Shown here: piece after piece, positions 8,570-51,664 of the stretch
How the letters are laid out: each line of letters opens with the position of its first letter
Numbering within the stretch: the first letter of the stretch is position 1
DNA from: Halieaceae bacterium
Lineage (GTDB): Bacteria; Pseudomonadota; Gammaproteobacteria; Pseudomonadales; Halieaceae
Direction of reading: 5' to 3'
Length of the DNA: 64,000 bases
Assembly (NCBI GenBank): GCA_028280635.1
Contig: JANQLM010000014.1
Coordinates: 1-64,000, forward strand
Notes under the pieces: generated by a model
What the model saw: the letters and a program-made list of their open reading frames with translations, nothing else
Database searches by the model: none
Told to the model about the DNA's origin: nothing
Made by a program: the position numbers and the translations under genes

Positions 8570-8579
8570 AGTGGCCTCT

Positions 8580-35751: not shown

Positions 35752-37605
35752 CTATTTCTTCTTGCTGGCGGCCTTGCGCGCCTCCACGGCCGGGCGCTTT
35801 TTGCTGCGCCGTTTCGCCCCGGCGGGGGGCTTGCCGGGCGGTCCGCCCCGGGTGGCTTTCGGCGGCTTGTTGCCGGTGCCGGTGTTGTCCGCCGTCTGCC
35901 GTTCCCGCGCGCGCCTGGAATCGGCTTTTGCGATCTGCAGCCGCTGGCCCGACACCCACACGCCCTTCAGATGGTTGAATACCTCTTTGGGCATGCCCTC
36001 GGGCAGGTCGACGGTGGCGTGGTCGTCGTAGATTTCGATACGGCCGATGTACTCGGAATCGATCTCGGCCTCGTTGGCAATGGCGCCGACGATGTTGCCG
36101 GGCTTGACGCCGTGGTCGTAGCCCACCTCCAGACGGTAGCGCACCATACCCTTTTCCGGGCGCGGCACCTCGCGCTCGTCGCGGCCCGGGCGCCGCGAGC
36201 CCTCGGGCACCGGCGAGCCTTCTTTCTGGCGGCGTTTTTCCCGCTCCTCGGCCCGGCGCTCCGGCGTTTTGCGCAGTTTTTCTTTGGCGAACAGCGGCTG
36301 TTTGTCCTGGGCCATGGCCGCCAGGGCGGCGGCCACTTCGATCACCGGCACGCCGTACTCGTGCTGGTACTGCTCCACCAGACCGCGAAACTTGTCGAGA
36401 TCGTCGCTGCTGTCGAGGGTTTCCGAGATACGCCCCTTGAAGCGTTTGACGCGGGTGTCCGACACATCCTCGGCGCTGGGCATGTCCATCTTCTCGATGG
36501 TTTTGCCGGTGGATTTTTCGATGGCGCGCAGCAGGCGGCGCTCGCGGTTGGAGGCAAACAGGATGGCGTCACCCTCGCGCCCGGCGCGGCCAGTGCGGCC
36601 GATGCGGTGCACGTAGGCTTCCACGTCGTAGGGTATGTCGTAGTTGAGCACGTGGGAGATACGCTCCACGTCAAGTCCGCGGGCGGCGACATCGGTGGCC
36701 ACCAGGATATCCAGGCGGCCTTGCTTCAAGGCCTCCACGGTTTTCTCGCGCTGGGCCTGGGCGATATCGCCATTCAGGGCCGCGGCCGCGTAGCCCCGGG
36801 CATTCAGTTTTTCGGCCAGCTCGGTGGTGGCGATACGGGTACGCACGAAGATGATCATGCCGTCGAACTCTTCCACCTCGAGGATACGGGTGAGCGCATC
36901 CAGCTTGTGCAGACCCGACACCATCCACACTCGCTGGCGAATGGTCTCAGCGGTGGTCTGCTTCACCTTGATGATGACCTCGGCCGGGTCTTTCAGGTAA
37001 TTGCGGGTTATGCGCCTGATGGCATCCGGCATGGTGGCGGAGAACAGGGCGAGCTGGCGGGCCTCCGGGGTCTGCTCGAGAATCCATTCCACGTCGTCGA
37101 TAAAACCCATGCGCAGCATTTCGTCGGCCTCGTCCAGCACCAGGCAGCGCAGGGTGTCGAGGGTCAGTGAGCCCCGCTTCATATGGTCCATGATGCGCCC
37201 GGGGGTACCCACCACCACCTGCGGGCCGCGCTTCAGGCCGCGCAACTGGGTGCGGTAGTCCTGGCCGCCGTAAATGGGCAGCACGTGGAAGCCGTCGAGA
37301 TAGGCCGCGTAGCGCTGGAAGGCCTCGGCCACCTGGATGGCCAGCTCCCGGGTGGGCGCCAGCACCAGCACCTGTGGGGCGGTTTGCGCCAGGTCCAGCC
37401 GCGCCAGCAGGGGCAGGGCAAAGGCCGCCGTCTTGCCGGTGCCGGTCTGGGCCTGGCCCAGCAGGTCGCGGCCCGCCAGCAGATGAGGAATGGTCATGGC
37501 CTGGATGGCGGAAGGCGATTCATAGCCGACTTCTTCCAGGGCGCGCATCAGCGGGGCCGGCAAGCCCAGCTCGTCAAAGCGGCTTGCCGTAGGTTCGGAT
37601 GACAT
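35752..37605 (-). CDS. deaD: DEAD-box ATP-dependent RNA helicase
   Basis: 617 aa from the ATG at 37605 (MSSEPTASRFDELGL); the track's start adds 26 residues. The motifs run in order: AQTGTGKT, PTRELA, DEADEML, SAT, then HRIGRTGRAGREG. The C-terminal DbpA-like RNA-binding domain (about 475-560, RLEVGYDHGVKPGNIVGAI) and a basic Lys/Arg/Pro-rich tail are those of CsdA/DeaD, which acts in ribosome assembly and RNA decay in the cold. The tail is rich in GGPPGKPPAGAKRRSKKR-like sequence. Confidence 0.95.
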   Translation of the reverse strand: MSSEPTASRFDELGLPAPLMRALEEVGYESPSAIQAMTIPHLLAGRDLLGQAQTGTGKTAAFALPLLARLDLAQTAPQVLVLAPTRELAIQVAEAFQRYAAYLDGFHVLPIYGGQDYRTQLRGLKRGPQVVVGTPGRIMDHMKRGSLTLDTLRCLVLDEADEMLRMGFIDDVEWILEQTPEARQLALFSATMPDAIRRITRNYLKDPAEVIIKVKQTTAETIRQRVWMVSGLHKLDALTRILEVEEFDGMIIFVRTRIATTELAEKLNARGYAAAALNGDIAQAQREKTVEALKQGRLDILVATDVAARGLDVERISHVLNYDIPYDVEAYVHRIGRTGRAGREGDAILFASNRERRLLRAIEKSTGKTIEKMDMPSAEDVSDTRVKRFKGRISETLDSSDDLDKFRGLVEQYQHEYGVPVIEVAAALAAMAQDKQPLFAKEKLRKTPERRAEEREKRRQKEGSPVPEGSRRPGRDEREVPRPEKGMVRYRLEVGYDHGVKPGNIVGAIANEAEIDSEYIGRIEIYDDHATVDLPEGMPKEVFNHLKGVWVSGQRLQIAKADSRRARERQTADNTGTGNKPPKATRGGPPGKPPAGAKRRSKKRPAVEARKAASKKK

Positions 37606-37746
37606 GGGTGTTCCCGGCCTCTGGGGCCGTTGGTAGTAGATGTGAGTGGCGCGGATGATACAGGATCGGCCGCATTGCCGCACTCGGCAGCCACAGGGCC
37701 CCGGCGGCCGGTAAGCGGTGGCCGAAAAGAGGGCGATGCGTCTCGG

Positions 37747-39009
37747 CTAGCGGGCTGCCGGCCTGAACTCGATATGCAGGGCTTTGAGCGACCTGAGCAG
37801 GTAGTGGGGGTGATAACTGAAGTCGTTCTTGCCCTCGGCAAACCACATCTCGTCGATGCGATCGACCACCGCTTTGAAGGTCCAGTACAGCTCGCGCCGG
37901 GCCAGGGGAGCGCCCAGGCAGTGGTGCTTGCCAGAGCCGAAGGCCATATGGGCGCCGGGCTTGTCGCGGTCCAGGTCGATCTCATCCGGTAGCTCGAAGC
38001 GGCGCTCATCGCGGTTGGCGGCGGCGTAGCGCACGTTCACCAGGCTGCCGGCGGGGATGGTGGTGCCGCCAATCTCCACGTCTTTGGCGGTGGCGCGCAT
38101 CAGGCTTTGCACCGGTGACTCGAGCCGCAGCACTTCCTCGATAAAGGGTTTCAGGTAGCGGTCCGGGTCGCCCTTCAGTTGCTGCCACACCTCCGGGTGT
38201 TCGATCAGCAGCTTCACGCCGGAGGAGATGGCATTGGTGGTGGTTTCGGAGCCGCCCACGAAGGTGTCGGCCATCATCTCCGCGTGCAGTTCGTTGTCGG
38301 TCATGGGCCGGCCCCATTCCTCGATCACGGTATTCACCAGGCTGCTCAGCAGCGAGTCGTCCGGGTGCTCCCGCAGGTGTTCAAAGATGGGCTGGAAGTA
38401 GTGCTGGGCTTCAATTTCCTTTCTCACCGAGGCCAGCTCCTCGTCCTCACTCTGCATCAGGCTGATGCGATGGAAGAAGGCCTCGGTCCATTCCTTGATC
38501 TGCCAGATATCGTCCGGGTTGGCGCCCATCTGGCGGCCGATGATCAGCAGCGGCAGGGGAATGGCGAACTGGCGCACCCAGTCGCAGTGGCCGTCGGCAA
38601 TAAAATCGTCGATCAGCCGGTAGGCCAGGTCGCGCACCTCGTCGTCCAGGGCCTCGATCTTCTTCGGGCGGAAGGCGTCGTTGAACACAGCGCGCAGGGC
38701 CTTGTGGTCGGGGTCGTCTCGCCCGGCCAGGGTCTTGGCGGGCACCCAGCCCTCGTTCTGGAAGGTCTCGGTCACCCGTTTGGCACGCTCGCTGGGCTCG
38801 GTGGCATCGGTGAGGTAGGTGATTTCGTTGGTGAAATTCTCGGTGTCGGTCAGCACCCGCCGCACGTCTTCAAAGCGCGTGATCACATACATGCCGCTGA
38901 AGGGGCATTGGTAGGCGGGCGCCTCATCGCGCAGGGTCTTGTAGGCATCGTAGGGGCACTGCTGGGTGCCGATATCAAACAGGTTCACCTGCGGGGTGCG
39001 GTCTGACAC
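37747..39009 (-). CDS. Cytochrome P450 (no. 2 of four)
   Basis: 420 aa. MAFGSGKHHCLGAPLARRE is the heme loop with Cys ligand, EEVLRLESPVQ holds ExxR, and DTFVGGSETTTNAIS is the I-helix with the normal acid-Thr pair (SETT). DDPDHKALRAVFNDAF is the C-helix motif. It is a soluble bacterial class I type. It is divergent from the SnoaL-like gene at 39088 with 78 bp between the starts, suggesting shared control. No ferredoxin or reductase gene is near. Confidence 0.94.
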   Translation of the reverse strand: MSDRTPQVNLFDIGTQQCPYDAYKTLRDEAPAYQCPFSGMYVITRFEDVRRVLTDTENFTNEITYLTDATEPSERAKRVTETFQNEGWVPAKTLAGRDDPDHKALRAVFNDAFRPKKIEALDDEVRDLAYRLIDDFIADGHCDWVRQFAIPLPLLIIGRQMGANPDDIWQIKEWTEAFFHRISLMQSEDEELASVRKEIEAQHYFQPIFEHLREHPDDSLLSSLVNTVIEEWGRPMTDNELHAEMMADTFVGGSETTTNAISSGVKLLIEHPEVWQQLKGDPDRYLKPFIEEVLRLESPVQSLMRATAKDVEIGGTTIPAGSLVNVRYAAANRDERRFELPDEIDLDRDKPGAHMAFGSGKHHCLGAPLARRELYWTFKAVVDRIDEMWFAEGKNDFSYHPHYLLRSLKALHIEFRPAAR

Positions 39010-39087
39010 TGATCATCCTCCTGCCACTTGTGAGAAGCGCGAACCAGTCTAGTATCTCGGAAAGCCAATGGGAACTGGAGCAAAGCG

Positions 39088-39597
39088 ATGGACGCACGAC
39101 TGGAGACGCTGTTGGACAAGCAGGCCATCGAAGAGGTGGTGATGCGCTACAGCCGCACCCTGGACTGGCTGGACACCGAAGGGCAGGGCAGCTGCTACTG
39201 GCCCGAGGCCGACATTAACTACGGCTTCTATGCCGGTGACGGCGCTGGCTGGGTGCCGGTGGTGATGGAGGTGGAACTGGCCTCTGAGCGCCGCTGGCAC
39301 CTGTGTGGTGGGCTGCTGATTTCTGTGGAGGGCGACCGCGCCAGCAGCGAGTGCTACGGCTTCACCGTGAGCTCCGCGCCCGACCAGCCCGGCGAGAAGA
39401 TGGACAGCCTGTTCGGCGGCCGCTATCTGGATGAATGGGAGAAGCGCAACGGCAAGTGGCGCATCATCAAGCGCAAGTACATCCTGGATTTCACCTACCA
39501 GTTGCCCCACGGCCTGGATGCGCTGGCTAAGTCGGGGTTCACCCTGCCGATTCTGCAGATACAGCAGCCTGGCCACCCGGAATACCGGCCGCTTTGA
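39088..39597 (+). CDS. SnoaL_4-type NTF2-fold protein
   Basis: 169 aa. The opening LDKQAIEEVVMRYSRTLDWLDTE and the ending YLDEWEKRNGKWRIIKRKYILDF are the landmark first helix and last strands of the SnoaL_4 family, which includes small ring-hydroxylating-dioxygenase-like or dehydratase-like enzymes. A Trp/Tyr-rich cavity is implied by YWPEADINYGFYAG. Substrate unknown. Its position back-to-back with a P450 suggests a role in the same catabolic path. Confidence 0.82.
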   Translation: MDARLETLLDKQAIEEVVMRYSRTLDWLDTEGQGSCYWPEADINYGFYAGDGAGWVPVVMEVELASERRWHLCGGLLISVEGDRASSECYGFTVSSAPDQPGEKMDSLFGGRYLDEWEKRNGKWRIIKRKYILDFTYQLPHGLDALAKSGFTLPILQIQQPGHPEYRPL

Positions 39598-39713
39598 GAC
39601 CGCCACGGTTCTTCGGGATGTCGGCTGGCCAGACTGTGTCTATCCTTGTCTAAATAAGAAAACACAATGCATGGCCAGTACTCTAGCCATATAAAAAGGA
39701 CACGTTAGCTACA

Positions 39714-41444
39714 GTGCCCACCGCCCTGATTCTCAGCCAGCGTCCCGGCGTGCGCTACCTGACCGGTGCGCTGATGTACTTTGCCCAGGGCATTCCCCAT
39801 GGGCTGCTGGCCATTGCGCTGCCGGCCTGGCTGGTCAGCGAGGGCGCCAGCGCCGGGCAGATCGGTTCCTACCTTGCGATCATCGCGCTGCCCTGGGCCT
39901 TCAAGCTACTGACAGGCCCGCTGATGGAGCGCTTCGAATTCCTGCCCATGGGCCGCCGGCGCCCCTGGGTGCTGGGCGCCCAGGCCGGCCTGTGCCTGGC
40001 CCTGCTGGCACTGACCCAGGTCGATAACCCCACCCAACAAATGGGTTTGCTGGCCGCTATTGGCTTTCTGATCAACAGCTTTGCCGCCACCCAGGACGTG
40101 GCGGTGGATGGCATGGCTATCGACGTCACGCCGCTGCAGGAGCAGGGGCGCCTGAACGCCTTCATGAGTTTCGGCAAGGCGATTGGCTGGAGTGCCTCCG
40201 CCGCTGTATCCGGCCTCCTGCTCGCCAACCTTGGGCTGGCTGCCACCGCCACCGCGGCTGCAGGGGCGTCGGTGGTGGGCGTGTTGCTGATGCTGGCCAT
40301 CCGCGAGCGCGAGGGTGAGTGTCTGCTGCCCTGGAGTACAGGCCAGGCCAGCCGAATACTGCGCGCGGAGGCCTCCTTCCATGCGGTCAAGGTGGCCCTC
40401 AATCACGTGCTGTGGACCCGCACCAGCCTGATCGTGATGGGGGTGATGTTCTTCGACGGGCTGATCTACGGCTACGGTCAGGCATTAATGCCCATTGCCG
40501 CGGTCAATCTGTTCGGCTTTTCCTCGGTGCAGTGGTCACAGTTGGTGGCGGTGATGGGGCTGGTGGGTGCCGTGATTACCCTGGGCCTTGGCCCACTCAT
40601 CGACCGCGCCGGCGCTAAGCCCATGCTGCTGTTTACTATCGCACTGGTAGGCATTCACGCCTTCACCCTGGCGCAAACCCAGCACCTGTGGGAGAACACT
40701 CTGTATGTGCGCAGCATGCTGTCGATCTACGTGATGATGCTGCCCATCGTCATGGTGGCCTCCCTGGCGCTGGCCATGGCGATCTGCTCCGGGCCGGTGT
40801 CGGCCACTCAGTTTGCTATCTATATGTCGGTGGCCAACCTTGGCCACGCGGCGGGCGCCAAGGTGTATGGACTGGTGGCCGCGCAGTCCGGCTATGTGCA
40901 GGCCTATACGGTGCTCAGCGTGCTGGTGGTGGCCATGATCCTGGTGCTGGTGTTCTACCGTCAGGCTCCGCCCGAAGACCGCAAGGCCGGGCGGCGCAAA
41001 CACCACGCTACCGTGGCCATCCCCGGCGGTGCGGTCGCCTTCTGGACCGGCGCCATCCTCTGCCCGAAATGCCGTATGCCCATGGACCAGGTAACTTACG
41101 ACGGTATCGAAGTCGACCGCTGCCAGCACTGCCAGGGCATCTGGTTCGACGCCGGTGAGATCAAGGCGCTGAGCACCCGGGACGCCGCCGAGGAACTGGA
41201 TATCGGCAGCACCACCATCGGCCACTGGCAGGACGGCATCCAGGACTACGACTGCCCGCGCTGCGGCGGCCCCATGCAGAAAGCCGTGGTGAAGCACCAA
41301 CCCCACATCCGCATCGAGACCTGTGTCGACTGCAAGGGCTCCTTCCTCGATGCCGGTGAACTGAAAGATCTTGCTGAACTCACTCCACGGGAGTTCCTAC
41401 GCTCACTGATGCCCGACCGCAATCACCGCAACCACAGGAAGTAG
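39714..41444 (+). CDS. MFS transporter fused to two TFIIB-type zinc ribbons
   Basis: 576 aa from a GTG at 39714. Residues 1 to about 425 form a 12-span AmpG/major-facilitator-like transporter (YFAQGIPHGLLAIALPAWLVSEG; ALPWAFKLLTGPLMERF; AATQDVAVDGMAIDV). After a basic linker (DRKAGRRKHH), two zf-TFIIB ribbons follow: CPKCRMPMDQV...DRCQHCQGIWFDAGEI and CPRCGGPMQK...ETCVDCKGSFLDAGEL, each with CxxC pairs. The frame is continuous across the junction and codon use does not change. Such ribbons are normally separate small proteins, so this is an uncommon fusion. The ribbons would be cytoplasmic. Substrate unknown. Confidence 0.88.
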   Translation: MPTALILSQRPGVRYLTGALMYFAQGIPHGLLAIALPAWLVSEGASAGQIGSYLAIIALPWAFKLLTGPLMERFEFLPMGRRRPWVLGAQAGLCLALLALTQVDNPTQQMGLLAAIGFLINSFAATQDVAVDGMAIDVTPLQEQGRLNAFMSFGKAIGWSASAAVSGLLLANLGLAATATAAAGASVVGVLLMLAIREREGECLLPWSTGQASRILRAEASFHAVKVALNHVLWTRTSLIVMGVMFFDGLIYGYGQALMPIAAVNLFGFSSVQWSQLVAVMGLVGAVITLGLGPLIDRAGAKPMLLFTIALVGIHAFTLAQTQHLWENTLYVRSMLSIYVMMLPIVMVASLALAMAICSGPVSATQFAIYMSVANLGHAAGAKVYGLVAAQSGYVQAYTVLSVLVVAMILVLVFYRQAPPEDRKAGRRKHHATVAIPGGAVAFWTGAILCPKCRMPMDQVTYDGIEVDRCQHCQGIWFDAGEIKALSTRDAAEELDIGSTTIGHWQDGIQDYDCPRCGGPMQKAVVKHQPHIRIETCVDCKGSFLDAGELKDLAELTPREFLRSLMPDRNHRNHRK

Positions 41445-41508
41445 GGGGAGCACCGCGCGGGCCGGAATTCATCTACACTGACAGCGAATAACAATAAGGA
41501 GCACCACC

Positions 41509-42549
41509 ATGCAAGTTGACGCCTACGCCATCACCGCCGAGGGCCAGGGCCTCGAGCCCTTCACCATCGAACGCCGCGAGCCCGGCCCCGAAGAGGTGCT
41601 GGTGGAACTGATGTACTGTGGCATCTGCCACACCGACCTGGTGGTAGCCAACAACGAATCCAAACAGGCCCAGTACCCGGTGGTGCCCGGCCACGAAATG
41701 GTGGGCCGCGTGGCGCAAGTAGGCGAGGGCGTGACCAAGGTGGCAGAGGGTGACCTGGTGGGCATCGGCTGCATTGCCGACTCCTGCAGAACTTGCGACC
41801 CCTGCCACGCCGGTGAGGAGCACTACTGCAACTCCGGCTTCGTGATGACCTTCAACAGCACCAATTTGGCCGGCGAGAAGACCTGGGGTGGCTACAGCAG
41901 CCATTACACCATTCATGAACACTATGTGGTGAAAATCCCCGAGGGCCTCGACCCGGCGGGTGCCGCCCCGCTGTTGTGCGGCGGCATTACCGTGTACACC
42001 CCGCTCAAGCGCTTCGAAGCCGGCCCCGGCAAGCGCGTGGGTGTGGCCGGCCTCGGCGGCCTCGGCCACCTCGCCATCAAGATGGCCAAAGCCATGGGCG
42101 CCCACACCACCATGATCACCGGCTCACCGAATAAAATCCCCGACGCCGAACGCCTCGGCGCCGACGACGTCGTCCTCACCAGCGACCCGGACCAGGTCGC
42201 CGCCCACGCCGGCAGCTTCGACCTCATCATCAACACCATCTCCGGCGAACACGACGTTAACGCCTACCTTCCCTATCTCAGCCGCAAAGGTGTCCTTTGT
42301 TACGTCGGCGCGCCCCAGGTCCCGCTACCACTGGTGATGGGCCTACTGATCTTCGGCGACAAAGTCATGGCCGGCAGCCTGATCGGCGGCATCCCCTCCA
42401 CCGAGGAGATGTTGGAGTTCTGTGCGAAGCACAACATCACCGCCGATATCGAGATGGTCGACATCCAGGACGTCAATGCGGCGTGGGATCGGATTGAAAA
42501 GAATGATGTTAAGTATCGGTTTGTGATTGATTTGGGGTCGCTCAGTTAG
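41509..42549 (+). CDS. Zinc-dependent NAD(P) alcohol dehydrogenase (MDR/CAD-like)
   Basis: 346 aa. YCGICHTDLVV and GHEMVGRV carry the catalytic zinc ligands, and CRTCDPCHAGEEHYC the structural zinc set. The cofactor loop is VAGLGGLGHLAIKMAKAMG. The layout is that of YahK/CAD-type aldehyde-reducing alcohol dehydrogenases. Codon choice shifts abruptly to A/T-ending codons in the last about 25 codons (from about 42476, GATCGGATTGAAAAGAATGA), although the protein end (YRFVIDLGSL) is still conserved. This marks the left border of the island. Confidence 0.92.
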   Translation: MQVDAYAITAEGQGLEPFTIERREPGPEEVLVELMYCGICHTDLVVANNESKQAQYPVVPGHEMVGRVAQVGEGVTKVAEGDLVGIGCIADSCRTCDPCHAGEEHYCNSGFVMTFNSTNLAGEKTWGGYSSHYTIHEHYVVKIPEGLDPAGAAPLLCGGITVYTPLKRFEAGPGKRVGVAGLGGLGHLAIKMAKAMGAHTTMITGSPNKIPDAERLGADDVVLTSDPDQVAAHAGSFDLIINTISGEHDVNAYLPYLSRKGVLCYVGAPQVPLPLVMGLLIFGDKVMAGSLIGGIPSTEEMLEFCAKHNITADIEMVDIQDVNAAWDRIEKNDVKYRFVIDLGSLS

Positions 42550-42768
42550 CAAGTTAGTAGACTGCATGAGAGCAGTCCATGTTTAGAGAAGCTCAATTTG
42601 TTTAGATAAACTTGTTCTTCCTAATTGCTTCTAATTCGATGGACGCAGATGGGCAGGTTTGAGGTGCTCATACGCCGTCCTGATGTGACCACCAAAGCTG
42701 TACGTACGGTATAACTAGACTCTAATCTTCGATTCTCTGTCTTTAGTGAGGATATCCGGCTTTACCCA
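42550..42768. other. A/T-rich gap at the left border of the restriction island
   Basis: 219 bp of visibly A/T-richer sequence with no ORF of note. A 6-bp inverted repeat (GACTGC at 42560-42565, GCAGTC at 42572-42577) lies just after the alcohol dehydrogenase stop and may act as a weak terminator. The rest should contain the promoter of the restriction endonuclease. I saw no integrase, tRNA gene or obvious att repeat. Confidence 0.55.
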
Positions 42769-43953
42769 ATGATTGATGTAACTACAGAGTCTCGATCGAT
42801 TGATTTGGTGGTGGATCAGGTTTATGGAGGATCTAGAAATGGTGATGTCTCCGACGACCCGCTTCCCAAGCTCCTCGGAGTTGACAACCGAGCGGGGTTT
42901 CGGCACTTGGGCCAGCGTCGACAGATCGAAACGCTTAAGATGGTTGTATTGAAGTCAAGTGGCAAAGAATTGGACTGGCCCGATTCCTTTGACCCTGAAA
43001 CGGGTATATTCACGTACTACGGTGACAGACGAACCCCGGGTGATCTGCACGCCACCCCGAGGCAGGGGAATCTGATTCTTAAGAATTTGTTTGATGCTGC
43101 GCATGATGAGAGCTTTATAAGCCACTTTCCCCCAATTTTTCTTTTCCAGAGCACGGGAGTGTATAGAGATGTGAAGTTTCTAGGACTTGCTGTGCCAGGC
43201 TCTGACAAAATTCCACACGATAGTGACTTGGTGGCTTTGTGGCGTAGTACTGGTCCTCAGAACCTGAGATTCCAAAACTATCGAGCGAAGTTCACGGTTC
43301 TAGACGTCCCAGTGGTTTCCAGGGAGTGGATAAAGGACGTGCAGAGCGGAGTTAACGTTTCTTCAAAGTATGCCCCAGAAAACTGGGTAAGGTGGGTGAA
43401 GGAAAGAAGCTATTGCCCACTGGTGGCGCCACGCACCTCTGGTGTCAGGACTAGACAGCAACAGCTTCCATCGGATGCTGAGGGTGGGCGCATTCTCAAA
43501 TCCGTCTATCTGCGATTTGCTGACAACCCAATTGCATTTGAGAGCTGTGCTCTGGAGTTGGCGCGCCTTATGATGCCAGACGTGATCTCTGCAGATCTCA
43601 CTCGGCCGTGGAGGGATGGAGGAAGAGATGCGGTGGGCCTGTTCCGGATCGGGGAAGGGGAGAGTGCGATAGAGGTGGATTTCGCCTTGGAGGCGAAGTG
43701 TTACGCTGCAGACACCAGTGTAGGCGTCAAGCCCTTGTCAAGACTGCTGTCGCGTCTCCGTCATAGACAGTTTGGTATCCTTGTCACGACTTCATACTTA
43801 GGTAAGCAGGCGTATGAGGAGCTCAGGGAAGACCAGCACCCGGTCGTAGTAGTTGCCGGAAGGGACATTGTGGACGTTCTTCGGACGAGGGTGGGAAACA
43901 AGCAAGCTATAGGCCGATGGCTTGATAACCTACCAGTGAACGAGTGGCTTTAG
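42769..43953 (+). CDS. AspBHI/MspJI-like restriction endonuclease
   Basis: 394 aa. The N-terminal about 190 residues (LVVDQVYGGSRNGDVSDDPLPKLLGV, TYYGDRRTPG, HATPRQGNLILKNLF, PPIFLFQSTG, RFQNYRAKFTVLD) match the SRA-like recognition domain of AspBHI, an enzyme that cuts near 5-methylcytosine. The C-terminal part is an Mrr-type PD-(D/E)xK nuclease: FESCALELARLMMP (helix with Glu), then Asp287 in DGGRDAVG and Glu308/Lys310 in FALEAKCY, then QFGILVTTSYLGKQAYEE. All catalytic residues seem present. It converges on a C5 methyltransferase. Methyl-dependent cutting is inferred from the family; a change of specificity to unmethylated sites cannot be excluded. Confidence 0.85.
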   Translation: MIDVTTESRSIDLVVDQVYGGSRNGDVSDDPLPKLLGVDNRAGFRHLGQRRQIETLKMVVLKSSGKELDWPDSFDPETGIFTYYGDRRTPGDLHATPRQGNLILKNLFDAAHDESFISHFPPIFLFQSTGVYRDVKFLGLAVPGSDKIPHDSDLVALWRSTGPQNLRFQNYRAKFTVLDVPVVSREWIKDVQSGVNVSSKYAPENWVRWVKERSYCPLVAPRTSGVRTRQQQLPSDAEGGRILKSVYLRFADNPIAFESCALELARLMMPDVISADLTRPWRDGGRDAVGLFRIGEGESAIEVDFALEAKCYAADTSVGVKPLSRLLSRLRHRQFGILVTTSYLGKQAYEELREDQHPVVVVAGRDIVDVLRTRVGNKQAIGRWLDNLPVNEWL

Positions 43954-43994
43954 CTATGGTGTGATCTTTGCCCCCGCAGCTACGCTGGTGTTTG

Positions 43995-44011
43995 CCTGAA
44001 GATGTTTCAGG
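43995..44011. repeat. Short hairpin between convergent nuclease and methyltransferase genes
   Basis: CCTGAA, loop GATGT, TTCAGG form a perfect 6-bp stem in the 136-bp gap between the two stop codons. It lacks a U-tract but could serve as a bidirectional terminator element. Confidence 0.4.
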
Positions 44012-44089
44012 TGGGCCAGCAAGGGGCTCCGGTCGCTACGGGTGTTCGTTGTCTTGAGTTTGTGAACAAATTGTGGATGCGAACATGCT

Positions 44090-45073
44090 CTACGAACAGG
44101 CTGCTGCAAGCTCCGGCGATTCTGCTTTGGAAATCTCTCTGAAGATGGCCTCCAAAACAGGAGCGCATACGCCGTTTCCGCAGAGCTTCACCTTTTCTCT
44201 CCGAGTTCCATATGACAAATTGTGATCATCCGCACCCATGGCCTGCTTAAGCTCGTCTGGTTGAAGCATGCGAAGATAGGCATTTCTCCCTCTCCAGGTT
44301 ACTAGTCCAAAGCGATCTAGTGTTGTAATGGTCCTCAACGGAGCATCTAGAGACTGCCAGCCGCCAGCATAATCTGATCCGTAGTAAACTATAATGAAGT
44401 CTTCTCCCTTCCCAAGCGTGCTAATTGCTCGGTTTGCTCGAGCAATTGTTGCTTCCGCCCTTCCAGGCTTTAGTAGCGGTGTGCTGCGGTAGGTACCCTC
44501 TGGTGCAATAATCTCCCTGGCCGATTTCCGCACTGCTTGGTGCCCTCGCAAAAGGTCTCTCTTGGTGATCTGGCTTTGCTCTCGGTCACATACAAGGAAC
44601 ATCCTTTTCCTTGACTGCGGCGCCCCAAAATCGGCGGCGTTCAAAAAGAGATCGTTAACTCTGTAGCCGGCCTGCTCGATGGTATTGATCAACTCCTCAT
44701 GTCGATCCCATCGTCTCATCCGGTTGACGTTCTCAACAATAAGCCACCGGGGACTAAGTGCTTCCAACCAGGGGAGTATTCCAATAGCAGTAGCCCTGCT
44801 TGTCTCTGAGCCAGGTTTGGCGCCCCTGGCTATGGAATGCGAAGTACATTCTGGTGATGTTAGTAGTACATCTGGTGAGTGGGTACTGGCGAGCTCGAGT
44901 GGGTCGAGATGCTCTATTGCTGAGCAGATTACTTCCGCCTCGGGGAAGTTGTCGCGATACGTTTCTACCGCGACACTCCACGCATCGACGGCCAGTAGTG
45001 GGCGGCCTCCCGCGCGCACTGCGCCACGTGCGCCAAATCCTCCGCCGCAGAACAAATCGACAAATGTTAGCAT
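44090..45073 (-). CDS. C5-cytosine-specific DNA methyltransferase
   Basis: 327 aa. Motif I is VDLFCGGGFGARG. Motif IV reads LLTSPECTSHS with the catalytic Cys76, where the common form is PPCQ-x-FS; the variant S-P-E-C-T-x-H-S marks a separate subgroup. Motif VI is ENV (114-116), motif VIII QSRKRMFLV and motif X GNGVCAPVLEAI. The variable target-recognition region is short, so a short recognition site is likely. It converges with the nuclease and is divergent (128 bp) from the mismatch glycosylase gene. It should place 5-methylcytosine in host DNA, whose deamination yields T:G mismatches that the glycosylase could repair. Confidence 0.93.
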   Translation of the reverse strand: MLTFVDLFCGGGFGARGAVRAGGRPLLAVDAWSVAVETYRDNFPEAEVICSAIEHLDPLELASTHSPDVLLTSPECTSHSIARGAKPGSETSRATAIGILPWLEALSPRWLIVENVNRMRRWDRHEELINTIEQAGYRVNDLFLNAADFGAPQSRKRMFLVCDREQSQITKRDLLRGHQAVRKSAREIIAPEGTYRSTPLLKPGRAEATIARANRAISTLGKGEDFIIVYYGSDYAGGWQSLDAPLRTITTLDRFGLVTWRGRNAYLRMLQPDELKQAMGADDHNLSYGTRREKVKLCGNGVCAPVLEAIFREISKAESPELAAACS

Positions 45074-45145
45074 TTGCTAACCCCGAGTCCCTTGAAATTT
45101 CATTGTTCATTCTTGCTTCAACGAAAGTCTACCAGGTTTGACAGT

Positions 45146-45160
45146 ACAGAGATATTCTGT
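45146..45160. promoter_or_regulatory. Perfect palindromic operator candidate between methyltransferase and glycosylase
   Basis: ACAGA-GATAT-TCTGT is a perfect 5-bp inverted repeat with a 5-bp centre. It lies 40 bp before the glycosylase start and 72 bp before the methyltransferase start, a position suited to controlling both divergent genes. A TTGACA hexamer at 45138-45143 adjoins it. No dedicated controller protein is encoded in the island; the response regulator has no recognised DNA-binding domain. Confidence 0.4.
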
Positions 45161-45201
45161 CGCTGCCAGAATCCGGTCAGTTTTGTTAGGTTCCCTTCTT
45201 G

Positions 45202-45858
45202 ATGATCGATTTCCCAAGCCAAGAAGTACGTCGCCTAATTACTAAGTGGGGGGAAGAGCATAAATCCTCCTATCCTTGGCGGTCCGTTGATGAACCGTGG
45301 CTAGGAATGCTTGCCGAAATTCTCCTTCAGAGGACAAATGCTCAGCATGTCAAAAAATACTATAAGGAGGTAGTAGGTCTATTCCCAACAGCAAGATCAG
45401 TCCTTACTGCGCGGCCTAGCGATTTGAGTCGTCTGGAACACCGTTTTGGATTGGATAGAAGAATCAGGACTGTGGTTTCAGCGGCGGAATATCTGACCGA
45501 GCGCGGAGAGTTTCCATGCGAGGTCAACGAGCTTTCGAAAATTTACGGCATCGGACACTACACTGCATCGGCGTATCTATCATTTCACGCAAATACTCGG
45601 GCCCTGCTGGTCGACGTGAACATAGCCCGGTGGTTGTCAAGAATGACTGGATTGGAGGAGCAAACGAACTTAAGGAAAAAGTCCTGGGTATGGAGTCTGG
45701 TAGATTCCCTAACTCCTCATGAGGAGCACACACTATTCAATTACAGCGTTTTAGATTTTACAATCGAGATATGTAGGCCGCGTGTACCGAATTGTGATGT
45801 CTGTCCAGTTGGGCACCTATGCAAGCACAAAGAGAAAAATGATGGTGACAGTGGGTAA
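45202..45858 (+). CDS. Mig.MthI-like T(U):G mismatch DNA glycosylase (HhH-GPD)
   Basis: 218 aa from the ATG at 45202 (the track begins at a TTG one codon earlier). EILLQRTNAQHVKKYYKEV parallels the EILLRRTTAGHVKKIYDKF segment of Mig.MthI as I recall it. The helix-hairpin-helix KIYGIGHYTASAY is followed by VDVNIARWLSR with the catalytic Asp138. The residue at the EndoIII lyase Lys position is Tyr120, as in the thymine mismatch glycosylase, so a monofunctional enzyme is expected. Cys191, 198, 201 and 207 give the C-x6-C-x2-C-x5-C iron-sulfur loop. It probably removes T from T:G mispairs arising by deamination at sites modified by the neighbouring methyltransferase. MutY is the alternative, but its C-terminal domain is missing. 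Confidence 0.88.
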   Translation: MIDFPSQEVRRLITKWGEEHKSSYPWRSVDEPWLGMLAEILLQRTNAQHVKKYYKEVVGLFPTARSVLTARPSDLSRLEHRFGLDRRIRTVVSAAEYLTERGEFPCEVNELSKIYGIGHYTASAYLSFHANTRALLVDVNIARWLSRMTGLEEQTNLRKKSWVWSLVDSLTPHEEHTLFNYSVLDFTIEICRPRVPNCDVCPVGHLCKHKEKNDGDSG

Positions 45859-45869
45859 TGGCACCACCT

Positions 45870-47039
45870 TTAGCTGGTGTATTCGGTGCCTTTCTGTGAG
45901 CTAAATCGTTCATCGATAACTCCCCAGAGGCCATCTAAGTCCAAGTCCGGTGTTCCAATTCTTCCATAGTATCTCGAAAAGTACTGAAGTAGTTCTTCAC
46001 GATACGGATTGTCTAGACTACACACGACTTCGAATTCCGCTTCGTTAATTCTTGGTTCTATTCTTACTTCTTGAAAATCTACAACTGAGTCCGGAATGAA
46101 GAAAGTGCCGGGAAGGAACTTGTAGCGCTGCTTGTACCTCCCCTTTACCAAATTCTTCACTTCATTCCTGGCTGAGTTAACGCCGCTCTTGGCTGCCTTT
46201 GCTCTCTGTTCCTCTTTCGAAAGTCTGTTGAAAGACGCGGCCTCCTTCACCCAGTCAATGTAAAGAGGATGCTCTGAAACTGGAACAACCTTCGCAAGAA
46301 GCACATTTTCGACGTTATTCTGTTCGAAATCACAGGCGGGAGTTAGCACCATCCACATGCTTCCATCATTTCGTTTCTTGAAGATGTCGGCTGGACTGCA
46401 TGTTTCCGGGCGAGGTGGATAGAGATACATCTCAAGAGGTTTAATTTTCGATTCCTCAAGTCCAAGAAGATCGCGTACGGAGAACTGAGAGAGGTTTAGT
46501 GAGAGATTTCGAGCTGCCAAAAGTGCAATCTCGTATGCTTCCAGCCCTTCAACTTTGGACGAAAACAAAGAGTCCAAAGACTCCCATATATAGTTTCTGC
46601 TCAAATCTTCAATCTTGCGATAAAGATGAGGCAACTTCGTATCGAGTATCTCACCTACAGCGGTTCTAATCTCATTCAACTCAGCACCTTTTTCAACAAC
46701 CTTAACTACCGGGCTAGCCAAATGCGTGACCTTTGCGGCGTAGCCCGTGTAGAAAACAACGGGCAGGAAACGCTCTGACTTAATGACCTCTAGCAGCTCT
46801 TCACCTCTTTGAGGTTTGTTCCCACCTTCTATGCTAGGGTCAGGATCACTGGCTTCATCATTTACGTCTAGGAAAACTAAATCAAATCGCCCATCACGAA
46901 TGTAATTAATGCCTTCTTCGAAGTTAGTAGTTTTTGTAAACAAAAATTCGTCATCATCGAATCCCCCTGCGATTGCTCGCTCTAGAGCGTCTTGCATCTC
47001 CTTGTCGTCGTCAACCGACAGCACCTTCCAAGTTGTCAT
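45870..47039 (-). CDS. Response regulator with unrecognised output domain
   Basis: 389 aa. Residues 1 to about 130 form a receiver domain: VLSVDDD (acidic pocket, Asp10-12), FLDVND with phospho-acceptor Asp58, YTG with Thr98 and VVEKGAE with Lys117. The remaining about 260 residues have no DNA-binding helix-turn-helix, GGDEF or other output I recognise. They contain a helical segment (130-200), MWMVLTPACDFEQN and VLLAKVVP strands, and a Lys/Arg-rich helix (SARNEVKNLVKGRYKQRYKF). A long acidic insert lies after the phosphorylation strand (NDEASDPDPSIEGG). It is the second gene of an operon with the dual-ATPase kinase (6-bp gap) and is likely the kinase's partner. Confidence 0.82.
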   Translation of the reverse strand: MTTWKVLSVDDDKEMQDALERAIAGGFDDDEFLFTKTTNFEEGINYIRDGRFDLVFLDVNDEASDPDPSIEGGNKPQRGEELLEVIKSERFLPVVFYTGYAAKVTHLASPVVKVVEKGAELNEIRTAVGEILDTKLPHLYRKIEDLSRNYIWESLDSLFSSKVEGLEAYEIALLAARNLSLNLSQFSVRDLLGLEESKIKPLEMYLYPPRPETCSPADIFKKRNDGSMWMVLTPACDFEQNNVENVLLAKVVPVSEHPLYIDWVKEAASFNRLSKEEQRAKAAKSGVNSARNEVKNLVKGRYKQRYKFLPGTFFIPDSVVDFQEVRIEPRINEAEFEVVCSLDNPYREELLQYFSRYYGRIGTPDLDLDGLWGVIDERFSSQKGTEYTS

Positions 47040-47045
47040 TCTCTA

Positions 47046-49274
47046 CTAGACCCGCCTATTGAATGTCAGCCGAAACACGGCGCCTCTTTGCTTGCCAGAA
47101 TCGAGTAACTCTGCGCTCCCACCATAGTAGTCCTTTACTATTTCTCCAACTAGGCAGAGGCCAAGCCCATGCCCGTCAGGTTTCTTCGAGAAGTACGGAG
47201 TAAAAATCTGGTCTCTATCTTCGGGGTGTACGCCAGGCCCCGTATCTGAAAAAACCAGTTCGAGTGGGCCTTCATCTTGCCTTTCGACGTGGACCCGGAT
47301 TTCCCTCTCATCCTCAGGAACGCTATGGAGCCAGTAAATACTATTTGTGATCAGATTTGTGAGTATCTCTGATAACTCTGTCTGATCAATGGTGACCAAG
47401 GTATCTGTTGATGGCAAATCAGTTCTGATTTTTGCTTTTTCCAGCTCCCTTTCGTATAGCGCAAAGTAGTCCTTTATGAGTTCTTCGATATAGTATTTCT
47501 TTTGTCTTCCTCGCTTCCTGCCACCAAACGGTTCTGCTCGACGCAGCACGTCGCTCAGGACAGATGATTGAGTTACGATCGTTTTGAAACTCTTGACCAC
47601 ACTTGATGTCGCTTTGCTGTCTTTTTGAGAACCAGAAAGCTGTTCTGCAGTTTCTTTTCCCAGTCCTGCCTCCATTTGGATTTTCGCGAGGGGCTGCCTG
47701 CCGTCATGGAGGATTTTGTCTACAATTCCCCCAAGAGTTGCTAGGGCATGGTACTGAGAAAGTACTACTTGAACCTTTTTGATCTGTGATCTCCAATCCG
47801 CTTCGACTTTTGAAACTAGTTCCAACGTAGTCTGTTTGCTTTCGTCCTTCTTTATTGATTCCACTACGGACTCGAAATCTGGCATCTCGAACATTCCAGG
47901 TTCATCCTGGTGTGGCGTTGCGGTTGATCCATCACGTCGCTTCGCCTTAAATCTCGAGTTTTCGATTTCGCTGAGCACTTGCATCATCATGTTCTGAAGG
48001 TCAGCGTAAGCAGAGTTATTGTCCAATCCTTCCCGGTTGCTTCTATCATGTAATAGCGGATTCTCGTCTGCCGAGATAGAAATGTAGCCGGTGATTTGAT
48101 TATTCGAGAGGTTCCTTGTTGGGTTTTGCACTCGCCGCAGGTCTAGGCGTAGCCAATCATTGTCTGGTTCGCCGTACGGTAGAACTCTAAACCCGTCTCG
48201 ATAAATATTGATTCCCGCTATTGCATCCAGATCCTTGCGGATGCTCCTAATCCCACCACCAACTTTCTGGACTACGTTTTCAAGATCATCTCTATCCCAA
48301 ACTCTAAGCTCAAATTGGATTGCGCCACAGCTAATATCTTCAGCTGACTCAGACTCAATTTGATCATCCCGCTCACTGTTAGCTGCTACCACTACCCACT
48401 CGTCATTGACAAGGGCCCTAATGAACTTACCTTCAAATTCAGCTTTCTTTTGGGTTTCGAGCACCTCAATTTGATACGAGAACTTTCCATCGCCTTCAAT
48501 GGCTCCCGCTGCTTTGTAGTGTGGATAATCGATTATTTCTGGTGGGGAGATTTTGGTTGCTAGTTCGTCATGAGGCGGCGGAAGTTGCACGTAGATATTG
48601 AAGTCACTATTCGAATGAAACGGCGATATCAACCTAGACAACCCTCTTCGGAGTTGCTCCAAGTCTTTACGCTCCCATGTGTGCTTCAATCGATTCATTT
48701 TTAGGTAAGTGCCACTCACCCTCGCATGGGTAGACTCATCCTTGTATTCGTATATTGGTGAATACGTTGTGACAAACTTTGCGTCCTGCTCTTCTGCTAA
48801 AAATTCTATTTCCTCAAGGAAAAGCTCATCGTTATCAAACTGTGACCAGTCAAAGATTGCGTAGGACTCAGTTTGCTTTTGCGAAATCGTACGAGTGAAC
48901 AGCTCAAGCTCCCTGGCAATGCGTGCCGTGGCGAATCTGCCAATACCCTTCTCACCAAGCACCCGTCTTGTTCCACTTCGACTCGTTGTACTCGACTTCT
49001 TGCTCGACGTTGCAATCACCATCCACGAGTCATGTATCGTTGCCATGTCCATGCCATGGCCATCATCGATCACTGATATAGAACCCTTGCCTTCTACTAG
49101 CTCACCCTCAAAGAGAATGAGCACGTTCTCCGCATCCGCGTCGTAGGCGTTTTTGACGAGCTCTATAAGGGCTACTGTTTCGCTGCTTATAAGCTCTTCA
49201 CCAAGAGTTCTGAGTATTCTGGCCTTTGGCCTAAGCACTAGAGGCGCGTTACTTTTATCTGCCGAATCGTTCAT
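47046..49274 (-). CDS. Histidine kinase with two GHKL ATPase domains (Hsp90/MORC-like plus HATPase_c)
   Basis: 742 aa from the ATG at 49274; the longer track start is a TTG. The N-terminal domain is an Hsp90/MutL/MORC-type ATPase: ELVKNAYDADA (N box, Glu38/Asn42), VIDDGHGM (G1, 69-75) and GEKGIGRFA (G2, 108-115), followed by a transducer-like region to about 480. A second module has ATLGGIVDKILHDGRQPLAKIQ with candidate phospho-His523, then a classical kinase ATPase with LTNLITNSIYW (N), SDTGPGV (G1) and HGLGLCLVGEIV (G2). No membrane span or periplasmic sensor is visible, so it is cytoplasmic. Hsp90-like ATPases linked to restriction genes are known. The partner is the response regulator 6 bp downstream. 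Confidence 0.85.
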   Translation of the reverse strand: MNDSADKSNAPLVLRPKARILRTLGEELISSETVALIELVKNAYDADAENVLILFEGELVEGKGSISVIDDGHGMDMATIHDSWMVIATSSKKSSTTSRSGTRRVLGEKGIGRFATARIARELELFTRTISQKQTESYAIFDWSQFDNDELFLEEIEFLAEEQDAKFVTTYSPIYEYKDESTHARVSGTYLKMNRLKHTWERKDLEQLRRGLSRLISPFHSNSDFNIYVQLPPPHDELATKISPPEIIDYPHYKAAGAIEGDGKFSYQIEVLETQKKAEFEGKFIRALVNDEWVVVAANSERDDQIESESAEDISCGAIQFELRVWDRDDLENVVQKVGGGIRSIRKDLDAIAGINIYRDGFRVLPYGEPDNDWLRLDLRRVQNPTRNLSNNQITGYISISADENPLLHDRSNREGLDNNSAYADLQNMMMQVLSEIENSRFKAKRRDGSTATPHQDEPGMFEMPDFESVVESIKKDESKQTTLELVSKVEADWRSQIKKVQVVLSQYHALATLGGIVDKILHDGRQPLAKIQMEAGLGKETAEQLSGSQKDSKATSSVVKSFKTIVTQSSVLSDVLRRAEPFGGRKRGRQKKYYIEELIKDYFALYERELEKAKIRTDLPSTDTLVTIDQTELSEILTNLITNSIYWLHSVPEDEREIRVHVERQDEGPLELVFSDTGPGVHPEDRDQIFTPYFSKKPDGHGLGLCLVGEIVKDYYGGSAELLDSGKQRGAVFRLTFNRRV

Positions 49275-49654
49275 ATGGACGTGATTTGTAGTTCCATTGT
49301 GTCTACCAAGAAGCCAATCACTGCATTGCTTTACCGGACTCATCACTAGCTGCAAGGCAGCCTACAGAGGGTAGCAAGGTGGATCGTATCATGTAGTTTA
49401 TTTGGTGAGACCTCGGGCTCGTTGTCCAGCGCACTTTTGCATATGCGTCCAGGTTAGCCATCTGGGATGGGTGATCCGAAAAAGCAGCTATTGGCCCATG
49501 TGCTATACAGGAATTGCTCATTCTGGGGTTGACGAGGTGGTATCTACGGCTGTGCATCTTTAGCGCGTGTTTGCGCGAGGGTTACTAGCTGGTTACTTTT
49601 GCTACTCGGTTAACAGATAATTGAGCAACCCGTCAGTCAACTATCCGACATAGT
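49275..49654. other. Non-coding right border of the restriction island
   Basis: 380 bp between the divergent starts of the kinase and P450 no. 3. Composition is A/T-richer than the downstream genes. The short minus ORF 49318-49557 has no domain and I treat it as chance. Promoters for both flanking genes should lie here. No integrase, tRNA, inverted terminal repeat or target-site duplication matching the left border was visible. Confidence 0.5.
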
Positions 49655-50956
49655 ATGAGCTTCCGTTCACGCCTCGGTAATTTGGACCTGTTCATCAATG
49701 GTGCTCAGGAACGCTGGTACGAAGCCTATGACATCTTGCACCGAGAGGCCCCGGTGTTACGCCTTGGTGGCGAGGGCTTCTTCCCCGGCACCGACGGCTT
49801 CGTGCTGACGCGCTATGAAGATATCGACAGGGTAGTGAAAGATCCGCTGCGGTTTCCGCCGATCTCGACCTTGATGCTGGAGCAGATTGCTGCATCGGAT
49901 ACCCCTGTTGAAGACATGGATTACATCAACGTGATGATGGTCTCCATGTTGACGCTGCGGCCGACGGTGGAGTTGTGGCGCTCCCATCGCAAGGAGCTGA
50001 CGGATCCCTGGGTGGGGCCGGGGTCCGGGCGGCATACAGAGATGATTACCGGGCATGCGGATGAGCTGATTGATGCGTTCCCGGCGTCCGGGGAGCTCGA
50101 CTTTATCCAGGCCTTTGCCCGACCCATGCCGCAGCGGGTGTTGGCGGCGGTGCTGGGTTTTCCGCCGGAGGATATTCCGCAACTCGCCGAGTGGGGCGAG
50201 GCGCAGGTGATGCCGTACGTGTATGGGGAGGGGCATCTCAACAAGCTCACCGATGAGCAGTTGGCGGCGCAGTTCAAGCAGCTCGACGGCTTCAAGGAAT
50301 ATGTGCAGGAGCAGGTGAAGCGCAAGCGGGTGGAGCCTGCGGATGACATGATCACCTTCCTCACCCAGGCGCACTACGAGGCGCTGGATCGGCCGCTTAC
50401 CGATATGGAGATCAACGGCATTGTCTACGCCATGGTGATTGGCGGGCTGGAGACCACGCAGTACGCGCTGGAAGAGCAGGCCCAGTTGATCTGTGAGCAG
50501 CCCGGGTTGTTTGAGACGCTGAAGGCCGACCGTTCGCTGATTCGCACCTTTATCGAAGAGGGCATGCGGCTGCGCTCGCCCACCCAGGGGCTGTCTACCC
50601 GCACCACCGGGCAGGACGAGGTGTTCCAGGGGGTGGAGGTGCCGGCGGGCTCCACGCTGCACCTGCGCTGGGGGGCGGCCAATGTCGATGAACACGAATT
50701 TGAATGCCCCCGCGAACTGAAACTCGACCGCAAGGCGGCCAGCCGCCACCTGGCGTTTTCAGCGGGGCCGCGGGTATGCCCGGGGGCGGGGATTTCGCGG
50801 CTGGAGCAGACCATTGCCTGGAACCGGCTCCTGGACCGGCTCGAGTCCATGGAGTTTGCGCCGGGCAATACCTTCGAGCACCAGCCTGGCATTATGCTGG
50901 GCACCAAGGAGCTCAAACTCAACGTAACTCTCAACAGCACAAGCACCGCCGACTGA
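49655..50956 (+). CDS. Cytochrome P450 (no. 3 of four)
   Basis: 433 aa. LAFSAGPRVCPGAGISRLE is the heme loop (the common Gly-x-H/R becomes AGPRVCPG). VIGGLETTQYALE is the I-helix and EEGMRLRSPTQG contains ExxR. The C-helix motif is LWRSHRKELTDPW, less typical than DPPDHxRxR. The chain is soluble and bacterial. The antibiotic-biosynthesis-monooxygenase gene follows after 12 bp with its own AAGGAG site, so the two form an operon. Redox partners are not encoded nearby. Confidence 0.93.
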   Translation: MSFRSRLGNLDLFINGAQERWYEAYDILHREAPVLRLGGEGFFPGTDGFVLTRYEDIDRVVKDPLRFPPISTLMLEQIAASDTPVEDMDYINVMMVSMLTLRPTVELWRSHRKELTDPWVGPGSGRHTEMITGHADELIDAFPASGELDFIQAFARPMPQRVLAAVLGFPPEDIPQLAEWGEAQVMPYVYGEGHLNKLTDEQLAAQFKQLDGFKEYVQEQVKRKRVEPADDMITFLTQAHYEALDRPLTDMEINGIVYAMVIGGLETTQYALEEQAQLICEQPGLFETLKADRSLIRTFIEEGMRLRSPTQGLSTRTTGQDEVFQGVEVPAGSTLHLRWGAANVDEHEFECPRELKLDRKAASRHLAFSAGPRVCPGAGISRLEQTIAWNRLLDRLESMEFAPGNTFEHQPGIMLGTKELKLNVTLNSTSTAD

Positions 50957-50968
50957 AGGAGACTCAGC

Positions 50969-51367
50969 ATGGCCACAATTCTTGCGCATATCGATATCCA
51001 GCCCGGCAAGGAGGCGAAGTGGGAGGCGATTATCGCCGACATGGTCAAGCAGACCTTCGAGCAGGAGGAGGGCGTGCTGCGCTACGAGTACTTCAAGGGC
51101 CAGACACCCAACCACTACTACTGCCTGCTGTCCTTCGAGGACAAGTGGGCGTTCTATGTGCACCAGGCCTCGGACTATCACGAGGGGCATGATTTCACGG
51201 ATGTGATCGCGGGGATCGAGCTGGAGTATATCGACCCGGTGCGGAATGCCAGCGGGCTGCCCGCCACCGAGAATCCGCCGCTGCCGGAGGATGCCACCGA
51301 GTTGCTGCGGCAGACGGAGGCCACGTTCCCGATTGCCATCGCTTCCTGGTGGGCCGGACGCGCCTGA
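50969..51367 (+). CDS. ABM (antibiotic biosynthesis monooxygenase)-like protein
   Basis: 132 aa with a strong AAGGAG ribosome site. ILAHIDIQPGKEAKWEAIIADMVKQTFEQEEGVLRYEYFKG is the ABM ferredoxin-like fold signature, and YYCLLSFEDKWAFYVHQASDYH continues it. The last about 40 residues are an extension beyond the usual 95-100 aa domain. ABM proteins are small heme- or cofactor-free oxygenases or decyclisation factors. Being in the P450 operon suggests it acts on the same substrate or product. That is inference. Confidence 0.85.
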   Translation: MATILAHIDIQPGKEAKWEAIIADMVKQTFEQEEGVLRYEYFKGQTPNHYYCLLSFEDKWAFYVHQASDYHEGHDFTDVIAGIELEYIDPVRNASGLPATENPPLPEDATELLRQTEATFPIAIASWWAGRA

Positions 51368-51433
51368 GGCCCTCCCTCCTGTCATGCCTGGGCTGCTATA
51401 GTTCAGGCAGACGTTTTTCGAGGCCCCGTGGTT

Positions 51434-51664
51434 ATGGATACCTCGCAACACACCCTGAACACTCTGTTCGAACAGCTCGGCCTGCCCTCAGACGCGGGCG
51501 CCATAGACAGCTTTCTTGAGAATCACACCCTCGAGCCCGAAACCCGGCTGGAGCAGGCCGGCTTCTGGAGCGCGGGCCAGGCCCAGTTTATTCGTGAGGC
51601 GCTGGAAGAGGACTCCGACTGGTCGGAGATCGTCGACCAGCTTGATACCTTGCTGCGCGGCTAG
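51434..51664 (+). CDS. DUF2789 family protein
   Basis: 76 aa from the ATG at 51434 (a GTG lies two codons before). MDTSQHTLNTLFEQLGLPSD at the N-terminus, FWSAGQAQFIREALEEDSDWSEIVDQLDTLLRG at the C-terminus and the full length match DUF2789, a small acidic helical family of gammaproteobacteria with no known function. It ends immediately adjacent to the stop of the minus-strand membrane protein. Confidence 0.9.
   Translation: MDTSQHTLNTLFEQLGLPSDAGAIDSFLENHTLEPETRLEQAGFWSAGQAQFIREALEEDSDWSEIVDQLDTLLRG

Follow-up and report, generated by a model that had tools for sequence, protein, structure and literature searches.

This locus raises the question of how a bacterium can carry, side by side, a nuclease of a kind that cuts DNA containing 5-methylcytosine (5mC) and a methyltransferase of the kind that makes 5mC. 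In this study, we analyzed a window of 64,000 nucleotides from a Halieaceae bacterium (the whole stretch of DNA presented here), in which the two genes are convergent with 136 bp between them (Table 1). The original prediction held that the host would cut itself if both enzymes were active with overlapping specificities, and offered three ways out: the nuclease has switched to unmethylated or differently methylated sites, the methyltransferase site escapes the nuclease, or the nuclease is gated, perhaps by the adjacent two-component pair. The question is a fair one because an intact AspBHI-type pocket does lie beside a complete C5 methyltransferase. Judged from sequence, the second way out fits best, since the pocket and catalytic residues are kept, the paired methyltransferases are intact, and two other loci show translational coupling between the two genes. 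We consider it somewhat probable that both enzymes are active, that the nuclease reads 5mC contexts not made by the host enzyme and that modified invaders would thereby be destroyed.

Table 1. Features of the island and its flanks (positions in the window).
Feature	Position	Strand	Basis
Alcohol dehydrogenase gene, one island flank	41509-42549		
Five-gene island, horizontally acquired (probably recently)	42550-49654		GC, GC3, methyltransferase absence from relatives
AspBHI-like (MspJI-family) modification-dependent restriction endonuclease, 394 aa	42769-43953	+	Pfam, PADLOC, PDB homology
SRA-like 5mC-reading domain, residues about 10-213	42796-43407	+	Alignment on AspBHI/LpnPI numbering (PMC4499157)
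Mrr_cat PD-(D/E)XK nuclease domain, residues 254-370	43528-43878	+	DGGRD...EAK intact
C5 cytosine DNA methyltransferase, PADLOC DrmMII-like, 327 aa	44090-45073	-	Pfam, PADLOC, motifs
HhH-GPD T:G mismatch glycosylase, MIG (V.MthTI) type	45202-45858	+	PDB match, motifs
Receiver-domain protein, C-terminal domain about 240 aa	45870-47039	-	Response_reg 5.6e-5
Soluble paraMORC-type histidine kinase: N-terminal HATPase_c_3, H-box, C-terminal HATPase_c	47046-49274	-	
Cytochrome P450 gene, other island flank	49655-50956		

The nuclease frame is open and intact. Its N-terminus had been taken for the SRA-like domain of AspBHI, and this identification holds: RE_AspBHI_N (PF18062) matched at 7.8e-62, and the pocket residues align and are conserved. 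Both features of the MspJI family are present, an SRA-like domain with a 5mC pocket and a C-terminal Mrr-type PD-(D/E)XK domain (Mrr_cat, 1e-11). The methyl-directed mREase_II model of PADLOC matched residues 9-386 at 8.5e-148. Homology to AspBHI (4oc8) extends over the whole length (2.2e-108, identity about 48%), and LpnPI (4rzl) matched in the recognition domain (2.6e-46). AspBHI was also the best match of the AlphaFold model (E 4e-34), but the mean pLDDT of this model was only 65, and around the pocket (residues 65-68 and 87-97) it did not reach 50; given these values, the pocket was judged by sequence alignment instead. W69, D71, Y82, Y83, G84, D85 and R87 of AspBHI correspond to W70, D72, Y83, Y84, G85, D86 and R88 in the window, and D71, Y82 and D85 are each essential, as alanine changes kill the enzyme (Sasnauskas et al. 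2015, PMC4499157). AspBHI N63 is replaced by S64, and MspJI likewise has Ser at this position (PMC4499157). The pocket W, D, Y and D are invariant in AspBHI, LpnPI and all 18 of the 18 other intact homologues aligned. With the catalytic motif also kept (D283, E308 and K310), pocket and catalytic residues are retained in the window nuclease and in every intact homologue.

Two DNA-contact loops are unlike those of all relatives examined, and the sequence context of the nuclease therefore probably differs from theirs. In Loop-2B, the usual GN is changed to GD at the position of LpnPI N27, and Loop-6C is shorter by one residue, with the near-invariant GDN changed to GDR. These changes could also be signs of decay, in which case there would be no working pair in the host and the nuclease would be an inactive passenger of a defense island; an alanine change at LpnPI N27 is indeed dead. 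However, LpnPI with N27H and S29G is active (PMC4499157), so the position tolerates change, and the full-length frame with its intact pocket and catalytic motif also speaks against a passenger, which we regard as rather improbable. Most parsimoniously, the window nuclease depends on 5mC and has a putative sequence context of its own.

The convergent neighbor is, as had been proposed, a complete C5 methyltransferase. The gene (METHYLTRANSFERASE) is an open frame with the full catalytic motif set, namely motifs I (DLFCGGG), IV with its Cys (PECT), VI (ENV), VIII (QSRKR) and X (GNGV), and it matched Pfam DNA_methylase at 5.7e-35 and PADLOC DrmMII at 3e-76. It is the sole C5 methyltransferase in the whole genome. 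Its nearest relatives in the sample of the class, 64-68% identical, lie in three loci (L009, L016 and L017 in our numbering). The nearest solved structures, Dnmt2 and HhaI, are too distant for a target to be transferred. CmCWGG has been ascribed to one DISARM C5 methyltransferase; our literature search neither confirmed this nor gave the specificity of the window enzyme, and our argument does not draw on it. If the window enzyme made CmCWGG, its sites would overlap those of LpnPI (CmCDG) and AspBHI (YSmCNS), and the paradox would be real. Membership in DISARM was rejected, as neither the drmA helicase nor drmB is among the genes of 36000-52000; the MrfA Zn-binding (MZB) domain, which we found in a DrmB, occurs nowhere in the host genome. 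Membership in MZA (Z1 helicase MzaC with MzaB, MzaD and MzaE) was likewise rejected, as the host genome has no Z1 domain.

The glycosylase gene has its best PDB match in 1kea (2.5e-26), so that MIG, the T:G enzyme, is its nearest relative of solved structure, and it carries the HhH-GPD fold, the motifs RTNAQHVKK, GHYT and VDVN, and four FeS cysteines. It stands in the position that Vsr holds in the relatives L009, L016 and L017, and a Vsr gene is absent from the host genome. Vsr and MIG both repair deaminated 5mC, by unrelated chemistry; the locus thus presents a non-homologous swap of the deamination-repair gene within a C5 methyltransferase module that is otherwise of the Vsr type. pCALKR01, pFV1 and a Halobaculum plasmid likewise carry MIG-type genes close to C5 methyltransferases. 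The replacement of Vsr by a T:G repair gene of a different fold implies that the methylation is real and costly, with selection to repair actual 5mC. This bears on the possibility that the methyltransferase is inactive, so that no conflict arises. The precedent is the MspJI locus, where the adjoining C5 methyltransferase was printed as a pitfall and is thought to be inactive (PMC3874153). In the window, however, the motifs are all intact, as they are in nearly every paired methyltransferase, the closest relatives have kept Vsr, and a T:G repair gene adjoins. We rejected an inactive methyltransferase on the intact motifs and the retained repair gene, and consider it highly unlikely.

Neither the glycosylase nor the acquisition of the five genes as one island was part of the original prediction. 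GC content is 43-54% inside the island and 62-64% outside, and GC3 is 46-54% in the island genes versus 80-86% in the flanking genes. In addition, its C5 methyltransferase was not found in 97 related genomes, three of them of the same genus. The odd composition and this absence point to a probably recent acquisition of the island. The completeness of the host genome is about 98.6%. The nuclease and methyltransferase (42769-45073) have a slightly higher GC3 (51-54%) than the glycosylase, receiver and kinase (45202-49274; 46-48%), so the island itself may be composite. Outside it, a single open frame at 39714-41444 appears to fuse an MFS-type transporter with two C-terminal CxxC zinc-finger-like repeats, which would be unusual.

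The nuclease family is rare. In the class, 2 of 369 genomes carry it, one of them as a remnant; the counts are 3 of 399 for the phylum and 2 of 289 for a second class. One scan of genome contigs gave one locus, and a Priestia query had no match among viral contigs. Neighborhoods were counted in 16 other intact loci, with L035 and L045 left out because their contigs end near the nuclease. A C5 methyltransferase lies within 2 kb of the nuclease in nine of the 16 (L006, L008, L034, L036, L037, L038, L039, L040 and L044) and within 8 kb in twelve (L003, L004 and L007 in addition), and there is none in the other four (three Rhodococcus plasmids and L046). At an assumed density of 10 C5 methyltransferases/Mb, the chance of nine in 16 is about 1e-7, and that of seven in 14, with one close clade collapsed, about 7e-6; both are rough estimates that ignore the clustering of defense genes. 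Because the pairing recurs in most homologous loci, it exceeds chance. It occurs in the settings of MZA (L036, PADLOC MzaB-E), DISARM (L040, DrmA/DrmB), a DndH-like ATPase (L008) and paraMORC (the window and L009), and Vsr adjoins the nuclease in L034, L035, L036, L038 and L008. The paired methyltransferases come from several subfamilies and range from 325 to over 500 aa. In L037, the nuclease is an AspBHI sister (70% identical) and the methyltransferase lies 120 bp away, convergent as in the window; it is 62% identical to the window enzyme and has nearly the same putative target-recognition segment. From the recurrence of the pairing in many unrelated loci, the nuclease may be a guard against foreign methyl marks that leaves the host's own sites alone.

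Two neighborhoods have the genes in tandem, the methyltransferase stop overlapping the nuclease start by 4 nt in L040 and by 1 nt in L009, which implies co-expression. This order resembles a type II pair, and MspJI itself was first mistaken for a type II enzyme on such adjacency (PMC3874153). The window nuclease might then have turned into an ordinary type II enzyme that cuts the unmodified methyltransferase site and is held off by methylation. However, its 5mC pocket is unchanged and is common to the characterized relatives AspBHI, LpnPI and MspJI, which require modified cytosine (PMC4499157, PMC3874153), and the methyltransferase partners are of several subfamilies and sometimes missing, unlike co-evolved type II pairs. 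On the conservation of the pocket we rejected this explanation as barely credible; the switch to unmethylated DNA that had been offered as part of the first way out is unlikely.

The main rival to non-overlapping specificities is that the specificities do overlap and that the host survives by silencing the nuclease, for example because the resident methyltransferase methylates the promoter of the nuclease gene. There is a precedent for exactly this conflict in PcaRCI/PcaRCII (PMC8989522), and a separate upstream region of 219 bp precedes the window nuclease. Promoter and terminator scans of 42540-45900 gave no more matches than shuffled sequence. The overlaps in L009 and L040 point to joint translation and argue for ordinary co-expression of writer and reader, although they are not decisive for the window. 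Moreover, silenced genes are expected to decay, whereas 19 of the 20 loci read carry an intact nuclease. We judge silencing to be unlikely.

The two-component pair proposed beside these genes is real. The open frame of the kinase extends to a TTG at 49355, and its homologues begin near 49274; its H-box and ATPase motifs look intact, and the phospho-acceptor D58 of the receiver is invariant. The C-terminal domain of the receiver protein is conserved (motifs PACD and YYGRxGxPDLD) and matched no Pfam family and no solved fold; the model was only moderate, and its Foldseek matches were receivers alone. This domain is possibly the effector of paraMORC-type systems. HEF_HK and Response_reg_2 had no Pfam match in the kinase and receiver of the window or in five relatives. 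The kinase, with its HATPase_c_3, His box and HATPase_c, lies by a receiver gene and a C5 methyltransferase as in TCS-like systems, and an association of such a pair with a C5 methyltransferase and Vsr has been published (PMC8011034, PMC2292703). Relatives of the kinase also stand by a gene resembling N6-adenine methyltransferases, together with a short receiver (L029, 4628-8676), and by a PAPS-reductase-like gene accompanied by a receiver-like protein (L030, 6765-11882); from these neighbors, this family of kinases may be used with more than one type of DNA modification. Many conjugative Campylobacter plasmids carry relatives of the pair.

Each of L009, L016 and L017 combines a relative of the methyltransferase with Vsr, a receiver protein and the same type of kinase. 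L016 and L017 have no nuclease, and L009 has a stump (8420-8710) that ends after about residue 80 and is coupled to an intact C5 methyltransferase followed by Vsr. This stump is a scar of nuclease loss. Among 65 viral-contig loci with kinase relatives, a C5 methyltransferase was present in about 28, Vsr in about 10 and the nuclease in none. The nuclease is thus mostly missing from relatives of the methyltransferase, repair and kinase module and, as judged by gene content, is dispensable to the rest of it. The nuclease-free modules of L016 and L017 count against our preferred explanation, and they support a passenger, as does the intact module around the stump of L009; a truncated nuclease by an intact methyltransferase would fit a conflict between the two enzymes too.

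The same distribution bears on gating, in which the activity or expression of the nuclease would be held by the kinase/receiver pair and released on infection. The genes are close, and the motifs for phosphotransfer look intact. However, the pair accompanies the methyltransferase and the repair gene, being nuclease-free in L016, L017 and 65 of 65 viral-contig kinase loci, every other intact nuclease locus lacks the pair, and no recognizable DNA-binding domain was found in the receiver protein. The third way out of the original prediction is therefore unsupported. It was rejected on gene distribution, and we hold it to be very improbable.

We infer that the island is a 5mC-marked defense module, formed by the methyltransferase, the T:G glycosylase, the receiver and the paraMORC kinase, to which an AspBHI-type nuclease would be accessory. 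The methyltransferase would mark one sequence motif as self, and the glycosylase would fix the T:G mismatches that arise from deamination of the marked methylcytosines. The kinase/receiver pair is probably part of an arm acting on unmarked DNA. The nuclease would flip out and read 5mC (or 5hmC), cut a short distance off, and be restricted to sequence contexts outside the output of the resident methyltransferase. Its targets would be invaders with modified cytosines, which a 5mC self-mark alone would let pass, and the host would be spared by sequence context rather than by gating. Selection is expected to make modification-dependent enzymes spare co-resident methyltransferases (Loenen and Raleigh, PMC3874153). 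It counts against the proposal that the in vivo action has not been explored for any MspJI-family enzyme (PMC12707154). A broader idea, which we put forward only tentatively, is that AspBHI-type nucleases are dedicated partners of 5mC-writing defense systems, co-inherited with them, often in one operon, and co-evolved to read 5mC except in the motif of the partner. Recurrent intact writer/reader pairs, some of them translationally coupled, suggest a role in closing a loophole that 5mC-marked defenses leave to cytosine-modified invaders. Natural pairs of this kind are also material for learning which loop residues set the sequence context, and MspJI-family enzymes are laboratory tools for methylome mapping.

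Each part of the locus belongs to a known family. As late as 2025, a review presented type IV enzymes as unpaired (PMC12707154), and the literature searched, which excluded subscription journals and curated enzyme databases, yielded no account of AspBHI-like nucleases recurrently paired with intact C5 methyltransferases. The recurrent pairing with intact writers across several defense systems may therefore be new. The nuclease is homologous over its full length to the AspBHI, LpnPI and MspJI family (type IIM / type IV), with the same two domains, pocket and catalytic residues. The MspJI gene also immediately adjoins a C5 methyltransferase gene (PMC3874153), but the neighbor in the window has all its motifs intact. 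The window shares with the TCS-like/paraMORC neighborhoods (Bellieny-Rabelo 2021, PMC8011034; Iyer 2008, PMC2292703) a HATPase_c_3...HATPase_c kinase beside a receiver, a C5 methyltransferase and a mismatch-repair gene, and differs from them in its MIG-type glycosylase in place of Vsr and in its modification-dependent nuclease. The glycosylase resembles MIG / V.MthTI in its HhH-GPD fold, the motifs RT.A.HVKK and G.YT, the FeS cysteines and a nearby C5 methyltransferase, but the identity is about 30%, and it belongs to a bacterial paraMORC-type module in which the relatives use Vsr. As in Pectobacterium with PcaRCI/PcaRCII (PMC8989522), a 5mC-making system and a methylation-dependent nuclease occur in one genome. 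The Pectobacterium nuclease, however, is an HNH enzyme silenced by promoter methylation, with no methyltransferase gene near it (PMC8989522), whereas the window genes are adjacent and those of relatives are translationally coupled. BREX and BrxU on pEFER likewise place a methyl-marked system and a modification-dependent nuclease on one island and give complementary protection (PMC8565348). BREX marks N6-methyladenine, which BrxU apparently ignores (PMC8565348), whereas the writer and the reader of the window share one base.
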